NCBI GenBank assembly: GCA_025201845.1
Contig: MU604059.1
Location: 23,789-41,319 of the forward strand
Origin: Martensiomyces pterosporus
Taxonomy: Eukaryota; Kickxellomycota; Kickxellomycetes; Kickxellales; Kickxellaceae
Length of the DNA stretch: 17,531 bases
Reading direction: 5' to 3'
A program made the translations under genes and the position numbers. This document shows positions 5,266-13,542 of this stretch, piece after piece; position 1 is the stretch's first letter, and each line of letters begins with the position of its first letter. Below the pieces are notes generated by a model, which was given only the letters and a program-made list of their open reading frames with translations, was not told the origin of the DNA and made no database searches.

Positions 5266-6063
5266 TTAGGAGGCATACTGTGAGATTTCTGCTGCGTTCC
5301 AAGAATAGTATTTGCCAGACAGGTCCTTTGTGGCCTCCAGAGCCAGCCGCACGATGACATGGGCAGGCTTCTCAGGAGGCAGCAGGGTGCCAGTGGTGTG
5401 CAGGTCATGGAACTTTGCCAGCTCATCAGGCAGCATGCCCTGGTCGCCCTCTGCGCGGATCTTGGCCTGCATGTCCGTGTCAACGACACCAGGCCTAATG
5501 GCCAACGCCGTGATCCTTGGCTCCTCGACAGAGATAGACTCGGTGAGCATGTTCAGGGCCGCCTTGCTGGCGCAGTACGCCGCCCACCCATGGTACGCAT
5601 GCGAAGCGGCACCCGAGCTGACATTAATGATCCTTCCCTCCGACTCTCTAAGCAGAGGCAAGGCGCGCTGGGTCAGAGCCACGATGCTGAACAGGTTGAC
5701 GTCGAAGTGCCGTTTCCACTCGTCCACAGGCGCATCGGCAAGCTTCTGGATAGGCTCCAGGACACCCGCGTTGTTGATAAGAGCCGCCAGAGGAAGGCCG
5801 GTATTGCGGACCAGCTCAACGGCCTTGTCCAGGTCGCTGTCCTTGGTCATGTCGCCGGCGCAGGCGATGAATTGCGCGCCCTGGGTGGCCACGCTCTGAG
5901 ACTCGGATGCGATGGAAGCAAGGAGCTCGGCTGACCGGGCAAAACCAACCACGGATACGCCGCGCTGGAGAAGAGCAAAACTGATGGCTCTGCCAATGCC
6001 CTTGGAGGCTCCAGTGACGATGGCCACGCTGCCCGCGACCGACTTTATACCAGCTTGGCTCAT
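5266..6063 (-). CDS. Short-chain dehydrogenase/reductase, IRC24/YIR036C (benzil reductase) type
   Basis: A classical 265-residue SDR, expected to be an NADPH-dependent carbonyl reductase in the cytosol. The cofactor motif TGASKGIG is at 17-24, followed by a GFARS strand end near 40-44 (basic residue favouring NADPH), and NNAG at 97-100. The catalytic set is Asn near 123, Ser150, Tyr163 and Lys167 (YCASK), with PGVVDTDM at 191-198. Several stretches resemble the yeast YIR035C/YIR036C group from memory of that family: NAGVLEPIQ, FSIVALTQRALP, WAAYCASKAALN, RPGVVDTDMQ and a late GKYYSWN. Substrates of that group are diketones such as benzil, so the physiological substrate is unknown. ATG at 6063 sits directly before the Rossmann strand, so the start is secure. 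No signal peptide, membrane segment or PTS1 is visible. Confidence 0.93.
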   Translation of the reverse strand: MSQAGIKSVAGSVAIVTGASKGIGRAISFALLQRGVSVVGFARSAELLASIASESQSVATQGAQFIACAGDMTKDSDLDKAVELVRNTGLPLAALINNAGVLEPIQKLADAPVDEWKRHFDVNLFSIVALTQRALPLLRESEGRIINVSSGAASHAYHGWAAYCASKAALNMLTESISVEEPRITALAIRPGVVDTDMQAKIRAEGDQGMLPDELAKFHDLHTTGTLLPPEKPAHVIVRLALEATKDLSGKYYSWNAAEISQYAS

Positions 6064-6349: not shown

Positions 6350-9300
6350 TCACAGGTTGCTCAACGCTGACGTAAACTCGTCAATTGATGGTGCTGGCGT
6401 CGCCTGCTTGTCCACCGACGTCTTGCTCTGTCTGCCATGAACAGCAGCAGCGGCTGTGGCTGTGGCCACAAAAACACTGGGGGTCGACAGTGCGCCCATC
6501 AGACTCGAAACCGGCGACTCAGACGACGGTACTGTCGAGTCCTGCATGCTTCTTGACGGTGCTCCACGCTGGGCGTACGGGGGCCTTGGGATCCGTGACG
6601 GACTCGAGGCAACAGAGCCTGCCTGGGTCTTCGCCGGCGCTGCGTTTCGGGAGTACATCCGCGGCGACGCATTGCTGCTGCTACTGCTGCTGGCCTCGGC
6701 AGCTAGTGGGTATGAGGGCGTGCTGCTTCCGGCGATCGACCCTGCAAATGCGCTGAACATGCCTGGAGCATCATCCAGCGTTGACAGGTCGGGCGAATCG
6801 CCGTGGCGGCTGAAGGGGCGACTCACAGGACGGTCGGCTTTGCCTGGTGCAGCAGAGGCACCATTAGGCAGCTGCGTGTGCACCTTGTCCGATGTGCCGT
6901 TTTCGCCAGCTTTGAGTGCCGAGTAGCGATGTGCTGCGCCCGTGCTGCGACTCGTAGTTGACCGCTGGTAGGTCCTCGATCTAGCGTACGGGTTCTTGGC
7001 AGGCTGGTTAGCCGCAGATGCAGGTGCCAGCTGGGAAGGCGCATCCTGCAGTGGTGCCTTGTTTGATGGCGTGTCGACTGTGCTGATCTCTGGGATGGGC
7101 AACAGAGGAGCCTCAGGCAAGCGCTCTTCAGAGCCCCCCTCCTCCTCGATCGATTCAATAGCAGGAGCCAGTGCGCTATCTGCAGTGCCGGCAATCGCTG
7201 CATCGTTTTTCCTCAGTTCTTCGTCCGTGTCTGTAGAGTGAGTATTCGTGGCCTGCTTTGCAGCGCTGCCTACACCATGGTTGTCCTCATCAAGAGCAGT
7301 CTGTGCAAGAGACGGCTGGGGCTGCACCTGTTGCACAGCAGTGGCAACTGCAGAGGTGCTGGTCTGCGGCGGCGGTGGCGGCAGTGGCACCGAGGATGTC
7401 GAGGCTAGCGAGTGCGACGAAGACGGAGTCTCGTCCCTACCAGACGACGCACTCCCATTCGGCACATCTGTCCTTGGCACAGCCGGACTAAACGCCGATG
7501 ACTTTGAAAATGCATTGTCGATAGTGAGCATCCTCGTCCTCGTCGCTATAAGCTCTCCACGCGAGGGGGAGAGATCAGACACGCTCGATCTGGTGGTAAG
7601 CGACGGCGACACAGCTCTCGACTGTCTGCGAGACACAGTGCCAGCACCTCCAGGCGTGGACTCGGGTGTCATCAGCCACCGTCTCTCCGTAGTCGAGCAC
7701 TGACTCAGTGTTGATGCTCTCCTCTGCAGCTTGCTTTCCCTTACACTCAGCGACACGCCGCTCCACAGCCAGGTGGGCGGCTCGTCGATGCTGAACGCCG
7801 GCCTCTGCGCGTTGTACCCAAAGGAGCAGAATGACCACTTGCTGGGGTCCTTTACCGACAGCCTTAGGACCCTAGTGAACTCGCCAATACTGGCCAAGTA
7901 CCCGTCGCCATTTGCGGCGCTTCCAAGCGACGCCTCGAACGGGTCGTTTTCAGACATCACCAGCAGGGTGATCTGGTGCTGCCTAGCGGCATTAAACAGC
8001 TGGCGGACCTGGTCGGGGGTGAGCGAGTTCAGTGCATCGTCAACAAAGGCAAACCGGGGGCTGTGGTAGACCAAGCGGCAGATAGCCAGGGAATAGAGCT
8101 CCTCCGCCGAGAGAGCTTTTGACCAATCCAACACGCGCCCCCAGTCACCATCCACCTTCTCCAAGAGACACTCAACGCCCAAATACCTCAGGATGGCGGC
8201 GAGGTGGTGCTCTGTGACGCCTCGCTTGACGGACTGTGTCTTGTCGTGTGGGAAAATGATCTGGTCCCACAGCGAGCTGCCAGGCTTGATGTAGGGCTTT
8301 GCCACAACATGCATAATCGAGCTGTGCAGTTTGGGACATGCGAGGACGCCACTTCGCAGCGGCCAAATGCCCATTGCTACTTTGCATATGGATGTGCGGT
8401 GCTGGTGTGTGGACCCGACGACCAGACAATGGTGCCCGCGGTCAACTCGCAGTGTTAGTGCGGCGAAGTACAGGCGGGGTGGCGTTTGTGGGCTCGACAC
8501 TTCTACTTGCTCGAAAATTATTGATTCGTCGCTGTCCCTGCGAGCTGGCCCAGCTGTCGTCCCCTGTGCTGCAGCTGGTGTGGATGAATCGTAGATTACC
8601 TGGATGCCCAGGAAGCCACTGCTGCCGCCTGCCGGGTTGGCCGCTGAAACGCCGTTTGACATCGTGTCGGAGTCTGAATTACAATACGTGCAGTGGGCAG
8701 TGCCGCCTAGCAGAAAGGATGTTGGCAAAGTTGGTGGAGTACGTGGTGGAGTACAGCCGCCAGTACCCGAGTCGAGCAAATCAGCAGAACAGCAGGATGA
8801 TCGCGAACTGCCGTTGTCGTCGTTGTCGCCGGTGGTGCTAGCGGGTATGCCGGGCTGAAGGTCCGAATCAGCAATCGTGGCCTGGGCAGTGTCGCTGCGG
8901 TTGCTATGTGAGAACTCAAAACTATAAAGCCGTGCAGTACGAAGAGGGCTGTTGGCAAAAGCGAGAGAGAGCGAAAGGGAAAAGCAGGCAGGTGCCTTTC
9001 CGCTTTCCTTGCTCCTTTTCGCCAACGAAACCTTCATCGCCGCTCTTTGTGGCTTGCCGCCTGCCTCTGCACTTGTTTGTTGTTTTGGTTGCGTGGTTGT
9101 TAGGTCGCAGGCAACAATGAGTGGTGTTAAACGGGCAATTATTGCAATTGGCCACTGCGCCCAGGAGATTAAGAAGATCAAGACGTTCAGCAGTACTGGA
9201 TTGCTGCTGCTGTACCCAGGGCTGCTAGAGGTGCCTAGTGATCCGGGTGGTATTGACGGGAGCCCGTTGCACGCCTGCGCCGGTCCATGTGATGATCTAC

Positions 9301-9352
9301 AACCTAAATGGCGAAGAGCGCCCACCAGCGGAGAGGCGAGCAGTGAGGTCAT
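6350..9352 (-). CDS. ABCD-type ABC nucleotide-binding-domain protein with degenerate catalytic motifs and a long disordered tail
   Basis: Residues about 279-500 follow the peroxisomal ABCD/Pxa1-Pxa2 nucleotide-binding domain. Parallels include GIWPLRSG for GLWPTYGG, PYIKPGSSLWDQIIFP for PYMSVGSLRDQVIYP, WGRVLDWSKALS for WxxVxDWKDVLS, and AICRLVYHSPRFAFVDD for ARLFYHRPKFALLDE. Catalytic residues are altered: Walker A is GSTHQHRTS (313-321) with Arg where Lys belongs, the signature is LSAEEL rather than LSGGE, the Walker B Glu is Asp439, and the switch His is Glu468. No ABC transmembrane domain is present. Residues about 540-1000 are Ser/Pro/Ala-rich and disordered, with PPPPPP near 658 and SRIP at 919-922. 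The start is uncertain. Met1 (9352) has C at -3 and lies almost on a TATA-like element. Met106 (9037) and Met231 (8662, A at -3) are likelier; a hydrophobic stretch at 51-82 may then be untranslated. I infer a pseudo-ATPase with a binding role; function unknown. Confidence 0.8.
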   Translation of the reverse strand: MTSLLASPLVGALRHLGCRSSHGPAQACNGLPSIPPGSLGTSSSPGYSSSNPVLLNVLIFLISWAQWPIAIIARLTPLIVACDLTTTQPKQQTSAEAGGKPQRAAMKVSLAKRSKESGKAPACFSLSLSLAFANSPLRTARLYSFEFSHSNRSDTAQATIADSDLQPGIPASTTGDNDDNGSSRSSCCSADLLDSGTGGCTPPRTPPTLPTSFLLGGTAHCTYCNSDSDTMSNGVSAANPAGGSSGFLGIQVIYDSSTPAAAQGTTAGPARRDSDESIIFEQVEVSSPQTPPRLYFAALTLRVDRGHHCLVVGSTHQHRTSICKVAMGIWPLRSGVLACPKLHSSIMHVVAKPYIKPGSSLWDQIIFPHDKTQSVKRGVTEHHLAAILRYLGVECLLEKVDGDWGRVLDWSKALSAEELYSLAICRLVYHSPRFAFVDDALNSLTPDQVRQLFNAARQHQITLLVMSENDPFEASLGSAANGDGYLASIGEFTRVLRLSVKDPSKWSFCSFGYNAQRPAFSIDEPPTWLWSGVSLSVRESKLQRRASTLSQCSTTERRWLMTPESTPGGAGTVSRRQSRAVSPSLTTRSSVSDLSPSRGELIATRTRMLTIDNAFSKSSAFSPAVPRTDVPNGSASSGRDETPSSSHSLASTSSVPLPPPPPQTSTSAVATAVQQVQPQPSLAQTALDEDNHGVGSAAKQATNTHSTDTDEELRKNDAAIAGTADSALAPAIESIEEEGGSEERLPEAPLLPIPEISTVDTPSNKAPLQDAPSQLAPASAANQPAKNPYARSRTYQRSTTSRSTGAAHRYSALKAGENGTSDKVHTQLPNGASAAPGKADRPVSRPFSRHGDSPDLSTLDDAPGMFSAFAGSIAGSSTPSYPLAAEASSSSSSNASPRMYSRNAAPAKTQAGSVASSPSRIPRPPYAQRGAPSRSMQDSTVPSSESPVSSLMGALSTPSVFVATATAAAAVHGRQSKTSVDKQATPAPSIDEFTSALSNL

Positions 9353-9362
9353 CAGCGCCCGC

Positions 9363-11457: not shown

Positions 11458-13542
11458 TTAGCCCAGCACAGATGGCGCAAACTGAACCTGCTTCTTGGGC
11501 TTTTCACCAGGATAGCTCATTGGAGTAGCTGAGGTATAATTATTTTGCTGCTGCTGCTGCGCCTTGCCGCCATTGCCCGGGAAGTTACGCATATGATGAG
11601 CCATGCTGTTCGTCGTAGGCGCGCTCTGTGACATGTGGCTCTGGTATGTCTGCTGGCTGCCGTAGTTGATGGGCACTGTGTTGGCATGCGCAATTGCTGG
11701 TGGCGGAGCAGCAGCAGCGCCAGTGTTGTATGCCTGCACGTCGTACTGGGGATACCTAGGCGGGTGCGGCTGCTGCTGCTGTGCCCTGCCGCCATTGCCC
11801 GGGAAGTTACGCATATGATGAGCCATGCTGTTCGTCGTAGGCGCGCTCTGTGACATGTGGCTCTGGTATGTCTGCTGGCTGCCGTAGTTGATGGGCACTG
11901 TGTTGGCATGCGCAATTGCTGGTGGCGGAGCAGCAGCAGCGCCAGTGTTGTATGCCTGCACGTCGTACTGGGGATACCTAGGCGGGTGCGGCTGCTGCTG
12001 CTGTGCGTGTGCCAGATTCTGCTGCGACGCAAACTGGCCCAGCTGATGTGAGTATCCGTACTGCTGTGGCGGAGCATGCGATTGCTGGTACTGCTGGTAC
12101 TGCTGCGACTGATGCACGGCGTGAGGATGGTACGGGTAGATAGTGGCAGAGGCCGACAAGAACTGTGGACCCGCTTGTGAGGACAGCTGAGGCGACGCAT
12201 ATTGATGCTGTTGTGGCTGGTTGGCATACTGTCCAGGCTGAGCACGCGGAGGAATAACGGCTGCCGGGGCTGAGGGGAGGTGCACATACGAAATATTCGA
12301 CACCTGAGGATGCGGATTGCCCAGCAGAATGGTGCTACTAGCAAAGCTGCTATGCTTCTTGCTCTTCTTTGAGCTGTACTTGCTCGGCATTCCAGCGAAT
12401 CCAGCAGCCTCAGCATCGCCAACCATTTCGCTGTTGGTCACGCTCGCAGCCTCCATCTGTACTCCTTGCCGCTGCAGCTTGGAGGTGGACTGCTGGTAGT
12501 AGGCAGCAGTAGGAGAGATCCCTGAAGCATAAGCAGTGTCATGCAGCCAGTCTGATGAATTGGCCTTACCGCCAGCGCCAGCTGGCTTATCCTGGTGCCG
12601 ATGATGCTTCTTCTTCTTGTCTTTGGCACTGCTACCTTCCTGCTGCTGCTGAACGTTGATGTGCGCCTGGCTGGCCGCAGCACCGATGCCTCCCATGCCG
12701 TTATTTGTGGCGGAGAGCACGGAATGAGTGGATGGATGCTGGGCGCTGCTGTGGTCGAATGCCTGGTAGCTGGTGCTCTGAGTGGCTGTGGCTGCGGCGG
12801 TGGATGCTGGAATTTGCATACCAGCAGCTGTGGAGTAAACAGTGTGCTTGCCCTTTTTCTTGCCGCCCATGCCACTAGGAGAGATGGGCATAGGGAGAGG
12901 CTGGGAGCTGGCATTAAGACTGCTGCCGGTCCAGCTGGGAAACGTGTTGGAGCTGGACATTGCTGCAGCACTAGCAGGTACAGCAGCCGAAGTGGTCGCG
13001 CTGGCGGTACTTGAGCTGATGGTGGCGCCGGTAGTGGAGTTTGAGTACTTGCTAGGCCTTGACGGGTTCGACGATCCTGTGTGACTGCTCGCATGTGCAA
13101 CAATAGAACTCTGCGCATATGCAGTATAGCTTGGAGGCAGCAGGTGTGCGTTGGGGTTTTGCCCTGGTTTGTAGTCGCCGTAGTTGGCCGATGGGTAGTT
13201 GTTTGGCTTTTGGTGGGGCTTGTGCATTGGCTGTGGTGGCGGCGGGTCCTTTTCCTTGTTGCTCAACAGCGTTGTTCCTGCCACCAGTCCCCCCAGGGCC
13301 ATCATGCTAGCACTGAAACCCAGCTTCAAGGCATCCGAGCCTTTGGTCAAGGCAATGCGCCGCTCAGCATCATCGCTGTCATCACAGTCCTTGCTATTCG
13401 TCTGTGGGTAGTGCGCAGCACTCTGGGCAGCATCCATTTCGTGCTTCCGGTAATTCCGCGCTTCGTAGCTGCTGGGCTGGCAGTACCCTTGGTTAGCAGA
13501 AGCATGCTCCTGGCGGTGGTGGTAGTAATTCATTTGCGACAT
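11458..13542 (-). CDS. Gln/Tyr/Ser/Pro-rich, prion-like protein with an internal 74-residue duplication
   Basis: I do not recognise a family. The 694-residue product starts MSQMNYYHHRQEH. It has an acidic patch at about 53-60 (DCDDSDDAE), then a glycine-rich hydrophobic stretch at 71-93 (LKLGFSASMMALGGLVAGTTLL) that could be a membrane segment or amphipathic helix, then a Pro run near 100. The rest is low complexity, with basic clusters at 228-232, 307-316 and 391-397, and a Gln/Tyr/His/Pro-rich region from about 420. Two copies of a 74-residue unit fill 513-586 and 587-660. The end is KKQVQFAPSVLG. Composition resembles proteins of condensates or cell-surface scaffolds. The start ATG has a weak context (T at -3); a second Met is at codon 4. 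Being open over 2 kb with codon-consistent in-frame duplication supports a real gene. Function unknown. Confidence 0.78.
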   Translation of the reverse strand: MSQMNYYHHRQEHASANQGYCQPSSYEARNYRKHEMDAAQSAAHYPQTNSKDCDDSDDAERRIALTKGSDALKLGFSASMMALGGLVAGTTLLSNKEKDPPPPQPMHKPHQKPNNYPSANYGDYKPGQNPNAHLLPPSYTAYAQSSIVAHASSHTGSSNPSRPSKYSNSTTGATISSSTASATTSAAVPASAAAMSSSNTFPSWTGSSLNASSQPLPMPISPSGMGGKKKGKHTVYSTAAGMQIPASTAAATATQSTSYQAFDHSSAQHPSTHSVLSATNNGMGGIGAAASQAHINVQQQQEGSSAKDKKKKHHRHQDKPAGAGGKANSSDWLHDTAYASGISPTAAYYQQSTSKLQRQGVQMEAASVTNSEMVGDAEAAGFAGMPSKYSSKKSKKHSSFASSTILLGNPHPQVSNISYVHLPSAPAAVIPPRAQPGQYANQPQQHQYASPQLSSQAGPQFLSASATIYPYHPHAVHQSQQYQQYQQSHAPPQQYGYSHQLGQFASQQNLAHAQQQQPHPPRYPQYDVQAYNTGAAAAPPPAIAHANTVPINYGSQQTYQSHMSQSAPTTNSMAHHMRNFPGNGGRAQQQQPHPPRYPQYDVQAYNTGAAAAPPPAIAHANTVPINYGSQQTYQSHMSQSAPTTNSMAHHMRNFPGNGGKAQQQQQNNYTSATPMSYPGEKPKKQVQFAPSVLG
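11563..12006. repeat. Tandem duplication of 222 bp, two nearly identical in-frame copies
   Basis: Copy one is 11785-12006 and copy two 11563-11784 (order of translation). By eye they differ at one base, giving Arg or Lys as the last residue of each 74-residue unit. Synonymous sites are identical, so the duplication is recent or kept uniform by conversion. Both ends of the unit lie at Ala-Gln4/5 stretches encoded by CAG, which suggests unequal crossing-over or slippage between short CAG tracts. Collapse or artificial expansion in assembly is the alternative. Confidence 0.92.

Follow-up and report, generated by a model that had tools for sequence, protein, structure and literature searches.

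The window analysed here, a stretch of 17,531 nucleotides from the fungus Martensiomyces pterosporus, carries on its minus strand the gene for a protein (P0001) that consists of one ABCD-type nucleotide-binding domain (NBD) followed by a tail of about 470 residues, and that is well supported, by sequence comparison and by a predicted model, as a conserved pseudo-ATPase derived from the NBD of an ABCD (peroxisomal-type) protein. A repurposed, non-hydrolysing ABCD domain had been proposed in the initial annotation of this DNA, and the proposal is borne out, in that the homologues share the loss of motifs and the predicted model has the fold; to judge from the sequences, P0001 probably acts as an adaptor and is not a broken gene. 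Three features were found beyond that annotation: an SxIP motif, a conserved block following the NBD, and a gene elsewhere in the genome that encodes a membrane domain (TMD) only. To the explanation taken as a whole, namely that P0001 would be a pseudo-ATPase protein-binding module that reaches microtubule tips through its SxIP motif and EB1 and docks on an ABCD3-like TMD protein, we would give somewhat better than an even chance. More generally, a dismantled ABC engine retained in many species of one fungal order would mean that such ATPases are reusable as pure protein-binding parts.

The gene and its surroundings

The stop-to-stop open reading frame (1003 codons, 1003 aa) occupies positions 6350-9361 of the minus strand, and to this extent the earlier description of a frame open for about 3 kb stands; as a coding sequence it comes down to 2.3 kb, the most likely CDS running from Met 8662 (MTSLL...) to 6350, stop included, and encoding 770 aa. 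This start was chosen because most full-length family members begin at the equivalent Met, many of them with a leader of the GFLGIQVI type. Third-position GC content (GC3) is 0.72 in the NBD, where it resembles that of neighbouring genes, 0.55 in the upstream extension and 0.61 in the tail, but it lends the start at Met 8662 weak support, because the rise sits within the NBD and both the upstream extension and the tail are without it. The extension itself (8663-9361, minus strand) is open and in frame 5' of the likely start, lacks GC3 bias and lies partly inside the public gene model, GQ54DRAFT_306269 (P0002). That model matches P0001 identically except where the two models differ: it places the start further upstream and treats the Walker A region as intronic. 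No second copy of the P0001 gene was found in the genome among the best-scored candidates.

A public model that extends the start and splices out this region might be taken as a sign of a decaying pseudogene or of a gene-model artefact. This we consider extremely improbable, as at least 27 other database sequences carry the family, 26 of the 27 with the LSQCSTTER block described below, and in GC3 the NBD resembles the neighbouring genes; decay as such was rejected on the strength of the conserved family, and the earlier view that this is not a simple dead gene holds, the family being conserved across many Kickxellales. A further candidate, that the NBD is an exon of a larger transporter gene, was rejected because most full-length members share the start Met and because the genome's four ABC_membrane_2 matches lie on other contigs (C43, C36, C16 and C11, the P0001 gene being on C131).

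Downstream lies a gene for a short-chain dehydrogenase (SDR; 5266-6063, minus strand), which stands outside the proposed mechanism. In Kickxella, one gene model (P0023) spans both an SDR (54% identical over 257 aa) and the NBD-only gene, and since it runs the two together the gene order is shared with Kickxella. Elsewhere in the window, a 222-nt tandem duplication (11547-11990, 99% identical, and probably recent) lies within a low-complexity frame of 716 codons on the minus strand, and a plus-strand frame at 3-2198, open at the window edge and rich in Gln and Ala runs, encodes what we take from its sequence to be a GATA-type zinc-finger protein.

An ABCD domain that has lost its catalytic motifs

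The NBD spans roughly residues 45-300 (7763-8530, minus strand, as for all features below). A phmmer search against the PDB gave matches to a 1337-residue "ABC transporter D family member 1" (9e-40), which is presumably the Arabidopsis protein, and to ABCD1 (3e-25), ABCD3 (1e-19) and ABCD4 (6e-17), while the profile TIGR00954 matched at 7e-36 at its NBD end, under its whole-protein cut-off; a Pfam search of P0001 gave no match, even at E 10. The predicted model, the folded part of which ends at residue 370, has the ABCD NBD fold and matches ABCD1, ABCD3 and ABCD4, the closest solved NBDs being those of ABCD1 and ABCD3. Thus phmmer, TIGR00954 and predicted fold agree on the family originally called; where a lack of significant ABCD matches had been contemplated, such matches were found, and by sequence similarity the ABCD assignment lies far beyond chance. 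Just one NBD was matched within the 770 aa, and no fused N-terminal ABC_membrane_2 domain was matched by Pfam. The reported absence of a transmembrane domain likewise holds, in that none was detected by Pfam or by a hydropathy scan (maximum 1.37), the latter being weak: the TMD-only control P0033 had just 2 segments over threshold, and across the 9 proteins scanned the TMD controls scored low as well. Among 25 family proteins no precomputed Pfam domain is present except in P0023, which owes its domains to the fused SDR.

The segments by which the ABCD scaffold had been recognised (GIWP, DQIIFP, DWSKALSAEE and RLVYHSPRFAFVDD) are all found in P0001, although GIWP did not survive as a feature of the family, its W occurring in 2 of 21 aligned members. 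The replacement of the Walker A Lys, the LSGGE signature, the catalytic Glu and the switch His in P0001 was confirmed, the residues previously numbered Arg319, Asp439 and Glu468 becoming 89, 209 and 238 when the 770-aa protein is numbered from its Met. How far the losses are shared was read by aligning 22 members of the family to 8 ABC sequences having a canonical Walker A. At the Walker A equivalent (GSTHQHRTS, 8390-8416; canonical GPNGxGKSS), Arg89 stands in place of Lys, which is present in 0/21 alignable members, 19 of these 21 having Arg. The signature equivalent, LSAEE (8099-8113), keeps the Ser in 1/22 (P0001 itself) and the fourth-position Gly in 9/22. Within the Walker B equivalent FAFVDD (8036-8053) the Asp (Asp208) is kept in 22/22, while the catalytic Glu, replaced here by Asp209, is present in 2/15 alignable members (7 being gapped), and in the H-switch equivalent SENDPF (7937-7954) Glu238 replaces a His found in 0/20 alignable members (2 gapped). 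The Q-loop Gln is found in 0/22. Orthologues with intact motifs were looked for, and the Walker A Lys, Q-loop Gln and switch His proved absent from every alignable member; among the 8 comparison sequences the Q-loop Gln is itself missing in one and the switch His in two. When strongly conserved ABC columns are counted, 4/14 nucleotide-motif columns are kept as against 18/33 others, so that the loss is concentrated in the expected direction but not significantly (p 0.12).

Two protein searches returned at least 28 database sequences of this family (P0002-P0026 and P0028-P0030, P0002 being the window gene itself); about 8000 candidates were scored per search, and distant relatives may be missed. 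Among the matches listed, the named members come from Martensiomyces, Coemansia and Kickxella only, all of them Kickxellales. Identity of the homologues to P0001 over the NBD is 37-51% (21 comparisons), from which we infer purifying selection on this domain. In public annotation many family proteins go under the name of long-chain fatty-acid transporter or of ABCD member, names that are misleading for proteins without a TMD or hydrolysis residues. A search of the open-access literature gave, among the matches listed, no title or abstract start dealing with the solitary-NBD family or with an ABC-derived EB1 partner.

With Walker B Asp present in all members and Arg so regular at the Lys position, a remodelled pocket could have drifted to another ligand (nucleotide, acyl-CoA or metal) and serve as a sensor; but most of the remaining pocket positions differ between species, and we regard this as very unlikely. 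The best-kept ABCD stretch is a different one, the segment PYIKPGSSLWDQIIFP following the Q-loop (8249-8296; Y124 22/22, G128 21/21, L131 22/22, P138 22/22). In transporters, the region after the Q-loop lies close to the coupling helices of the TMD. One reading of this strong conservation is that P0001 acts as a regulatory NBD without hydrolysis, docking in trans on two-domain ABCD half-transporters (Pxa1/Pxa2-like) to lock or tune fatty acyl-CoA import. Three such two-domain ABCDs are present in the genome (L001, L002 and L003), and ABCD1 and ABCD3 provide the closest solved NBDs. Half-transporters, on the other hand, carry their own fused NBDs and so offer no obvious docking site, and the signature and Walker A needed for an NBD sandwich are lost; such a role seems unlikely. 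The preferred explanation is that the dead ABCD NBD would serve as a protein-binding module and not as an engine, perhaps still keeping its membrane-domain-facing surface and, speculatively, docking by it in trans on a membrane domain of ABCD type.

The tail, its SxIP motif and EB1

After the NBD comes a block, RRASTLSQCSTTERRW...SRRQSRAVSPSLTTRSSVSDL (7571-7723), with invariant alignment columns: LSQCSTTER, then R or H, then W, is present in 28/29 sequences (P0001 included), the one other, P0029, being a partial protein that ends earlier. The stretch SRRQSR..SP.LTARSS.SD follows the LSQCSTTER block. Further on, the family alignment picks out a conserved island NPYARSRTYQRS (6959-6994) and a conserved C-terminus SIDEFTSALSNL (6353-6388; often DE[LF]xxALxNL in the family), and between these lies the SxIP-type motif SPSRIPRPP (6578-6604). 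Its core, SRIP[RQ], is present in 24/29 sequences (23/28 if the window gene is not counted a second time through its public model), and is absent from the Kickxella alabastrina models P0017, P0022 and P0023 and from the partial proteins P0028 and P0029. Any SxIP at all turned up in 15.5% of shuffled tails on average; the SRIP[RQ] core is fixed while the rest of the tail is poorly conserved. Its surroundings are basic and Ser/Pro-rich, and it is on composition that a disordered state of the SxIP region would rest. The disordered tail of about 500 residues described initially is right as to a long tail (about 470 residues), its disorder around the motif being suggested by composition. The peptide SRIPRP had no match in a text search of the open-access literature.

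The same genome contains an EB1 gene (PF03271, E 8e-14), whose product has in its C-terminal region the sequences FYFSKLREIE and DDGFV, which we take to be functional parts of that region. In human EB1, SxIP sequences bind the EBH domain, the residues following SxIP and basic charge both mattering (PMC12695022, in the part of its text available), and the accessible text on Bim1, the yeast and hence fungal EB1, describes cargo bound through SxIP (PMC8441410). The fit is incomplete, since the SxIP-locking segment reads FVAD in this fungus as against FVIP in human EB1 (PMC12695022, available part). Taking the motif as a guide, we infer that P0001 is probably recruited by EB1; the tail SxIP would bind the EB1 of the same genome, bringing P0001 to growing microtubule ends, and this putative function is the best supported of the mechanisms considered. 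RRxS and SP sites near both the NBD and the SxIP motif may in addition tune EB1 recruitment by phosphorylation.

Those same sites can be read in another way. The block after the NBD is better kept than SxIP (28/29 against 24/29) and rich in RRxS and SP sites (RRxSxLSQCSTTER, SRRQSR..SP), as might be expected if the protein were a conserved pseudo-ATPase whose tail is a kinase substrate or a 14-3-3-type scaffold, with SxIP incidental and no tie to peroxisomes. One would then have to account for an SRIP[RQ] core that stays constant in 24/29 sequences amid diverging surroundings, and for the presence of EB1, and we consider a scaffold of this kind possible, if rather doubtful.

A membrane-domain-only protein, and comparison with known systems

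If P0001 docks on a membrane domain, the candidates lie among the genome's four ABC_membrane_2 matches (L001-L004). L001, L002 and L003 are ABCD half-transporters with their own NBDs, the first two nearest to ABCD1 and plant-type ABCD1 and the third having in human ABCD4 a far closer relative than either ABCD1 or ABCD3. L004 (protein P0033; G000:C11:82890-83528) comprises a leader of about 480 residues and a membrane domain, and its frame reaches a stop soon past the final predicted helix; a P0001-like NBD was looked for on its contig and not found. The leader is of low complexity and contains acidic repeats of the YTED type as well as the conserved block HRFVSHTPWGxSTGRLTR. A search with P0033 returned at least 38 proteins, namely its public copy P0034, 36 homologues and an ordinary ABCD (P0071). 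When P0033 was scanned together with its 36 homologues, none of these 37 TMD-only sequences showed a Walker A or signature pattern, and SxIP occurs in 5/37, scattered and not as a shared motif. Among the matches listed, 34 of the 36 homologues are 63-87% identical and those of Mycoemilia and Spiromyces 33-35%, so that conservation of the TMD-only protein is far higher than that of the NBD-only protein. Among solved structures it is closest to ABCD3 (116.8 bits) and then to ABCD1 (71), which are also the best structural matches of its predicted model (mean pLDDT 72). Its loop at the second coupling region, a position to which we apply the labels EAA-like and coupling-helix-2, is degenerate. At the position of the peroxisome-targeting H0 motif there is a stretch of 14 residues, FIKSVSRLLGIGFP; by the motif definition given in the available text of PMC5059523, P0033 fits 6 of 12 defined positions, the Spiromyces protein 8 and the Mycoemilia protein 5. 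As an unrelated window of the Mycoemilia protein (P0069) also scores 6, the weak case for FIKSVSRLLGIGFP as a degenerate H0 motif depends more on where it lies than on how well it scores.

In a tree of 23 sequences the TMD-only family groups with human ABCD3 (UFBoot 90) and inside ABCD1-3 (97). The AU test rejects its grouping with L001 (0.017), L002/P0071 (0.005) and ABCD4/L003 (0.002), and keeps its placement with the whole ABCD1 clade (p 0.29) or outside ABCD1-3 (p 0.17). The solitary-NBD family is monophyletic in the NBD tree (UFBoot 100) and falls outside the ABCD1-3 group (UFBoot 85); none of the five alternative placements is rejected by the AU test, neither that with ABCD1-3 (p 0.44) nor that with ABCD3 (p 0.21), though the latter is excluded by RELL and ELW. 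The NBD tree leans against a shared ABCD3 origin of the two.

Each of the two proteins looks like the other's missing half, each is found once in the genome, and by a hand count among the matches listed 15 of the 24 organisms given for NBD-only proteins recur among those given for TMD-only proteins. Among the same matches, no NBD-only protein appears for Dipsacomyces, Linderina, Mycoemilia or Spiromyces, where the TMD-only protein is present; gaps in gene models are possible. In Kickxella alabastrina, the entries for P0022 (NBD-only) and P0055 (TMD-only) give the same length for the longest contig, 304,826 bases, and the two may share a scaffold. We put forward, speculatively, the hypothesis that P0001 pairs with such a protein, its docking partner most likely being the solitary, ABCD3-like P0033, and that the NBD-only/TMD-only pair might link peroxisomes to microtubule tips; the role as a peroxisome- or lipid-related adaptor that was suggested initially is likewise a putative one. 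A more specific version is that in Kickxellales an ABCD3/PMP70-type transporter was split into two genes, giving a non-transporting tether between peroxisomes and EB1 (a peroxisomal TMD protein plus a dead, SxIP-bearing NBD). This was lowered from unlikely to quite unlikely because the NBD tree places the family outside ABCD1-3 (85) and two measures exclude the ABCD3 grouping, but a tether as such needs no shared origin of its pieces. If the links to EB1 and to a membrane domain are true, they would amount to a new tie between an organelle and microtubule tips, and would bear on the extra ABC-D genes of early fungi.

With the ABCD half-transporters (ABCD1/ALDP, ABCD3/PMP70, yeast Pxa1/Pxa2) P0001 shares NBD sequence, predicted fold and the segments PY...DQIIFP and W...LS...RLxYH.P.FA..D; unlike them it has no TMD that was found, has lost Walker A, Q-loop, signature, catalytic Glu and switch His, and has a long SxIP tail. 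TAP1, CFTR and Pdr5 have degenerate nucleotide-binding sites, with catalytic motifs lost and fold kept, beside a working site in a full transporter; the same combination of motif loss with a kept fold is seen in P0001, but in an NBD that is free-standing. ABC-E and ABC-F proteins are active ATPases with two NBDs per chain, whereas P0001 has a single ABCD-type NBD without hydrolysis residues. What P0001 has in common with these and with Caf16-type proteins is an ABC NBD without a TMD (PMC2848647, available part). As in SxIP-type plus-end trackers such as fungal Duo1, which binds Bim1 (PMC8441410, accessible text), the SxIP core sits in a basic, Ser/Pro-rich region, but here the motif rides on an ABC-derived domain and EB1 binding is putative. 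Aspergillus peroxisomes, in the available part of the account, hitchhike on endosomes, so that a route through EB1 would be different. Lastly, some early-diverging fungi have extra ABC-D genes, the origin and function of which are called enigmatic (PMC4692070), and one survey places two extra ABC-D genes outside the Pxa1/Pxa2 groups and calls them worth investigating (PMC2848647). These genes, of Rhizopus, Rhizophagus and Spizellomyces, resemble the setting of P0001 in belonging to early-diverging fungi and lying outside Pxa1/Pxa2, but the accessible text of both papers treats them as transporters, with one putative pseudogene among them, and describes no ABCD proteins divided into TMD-only and NBD-only forms.
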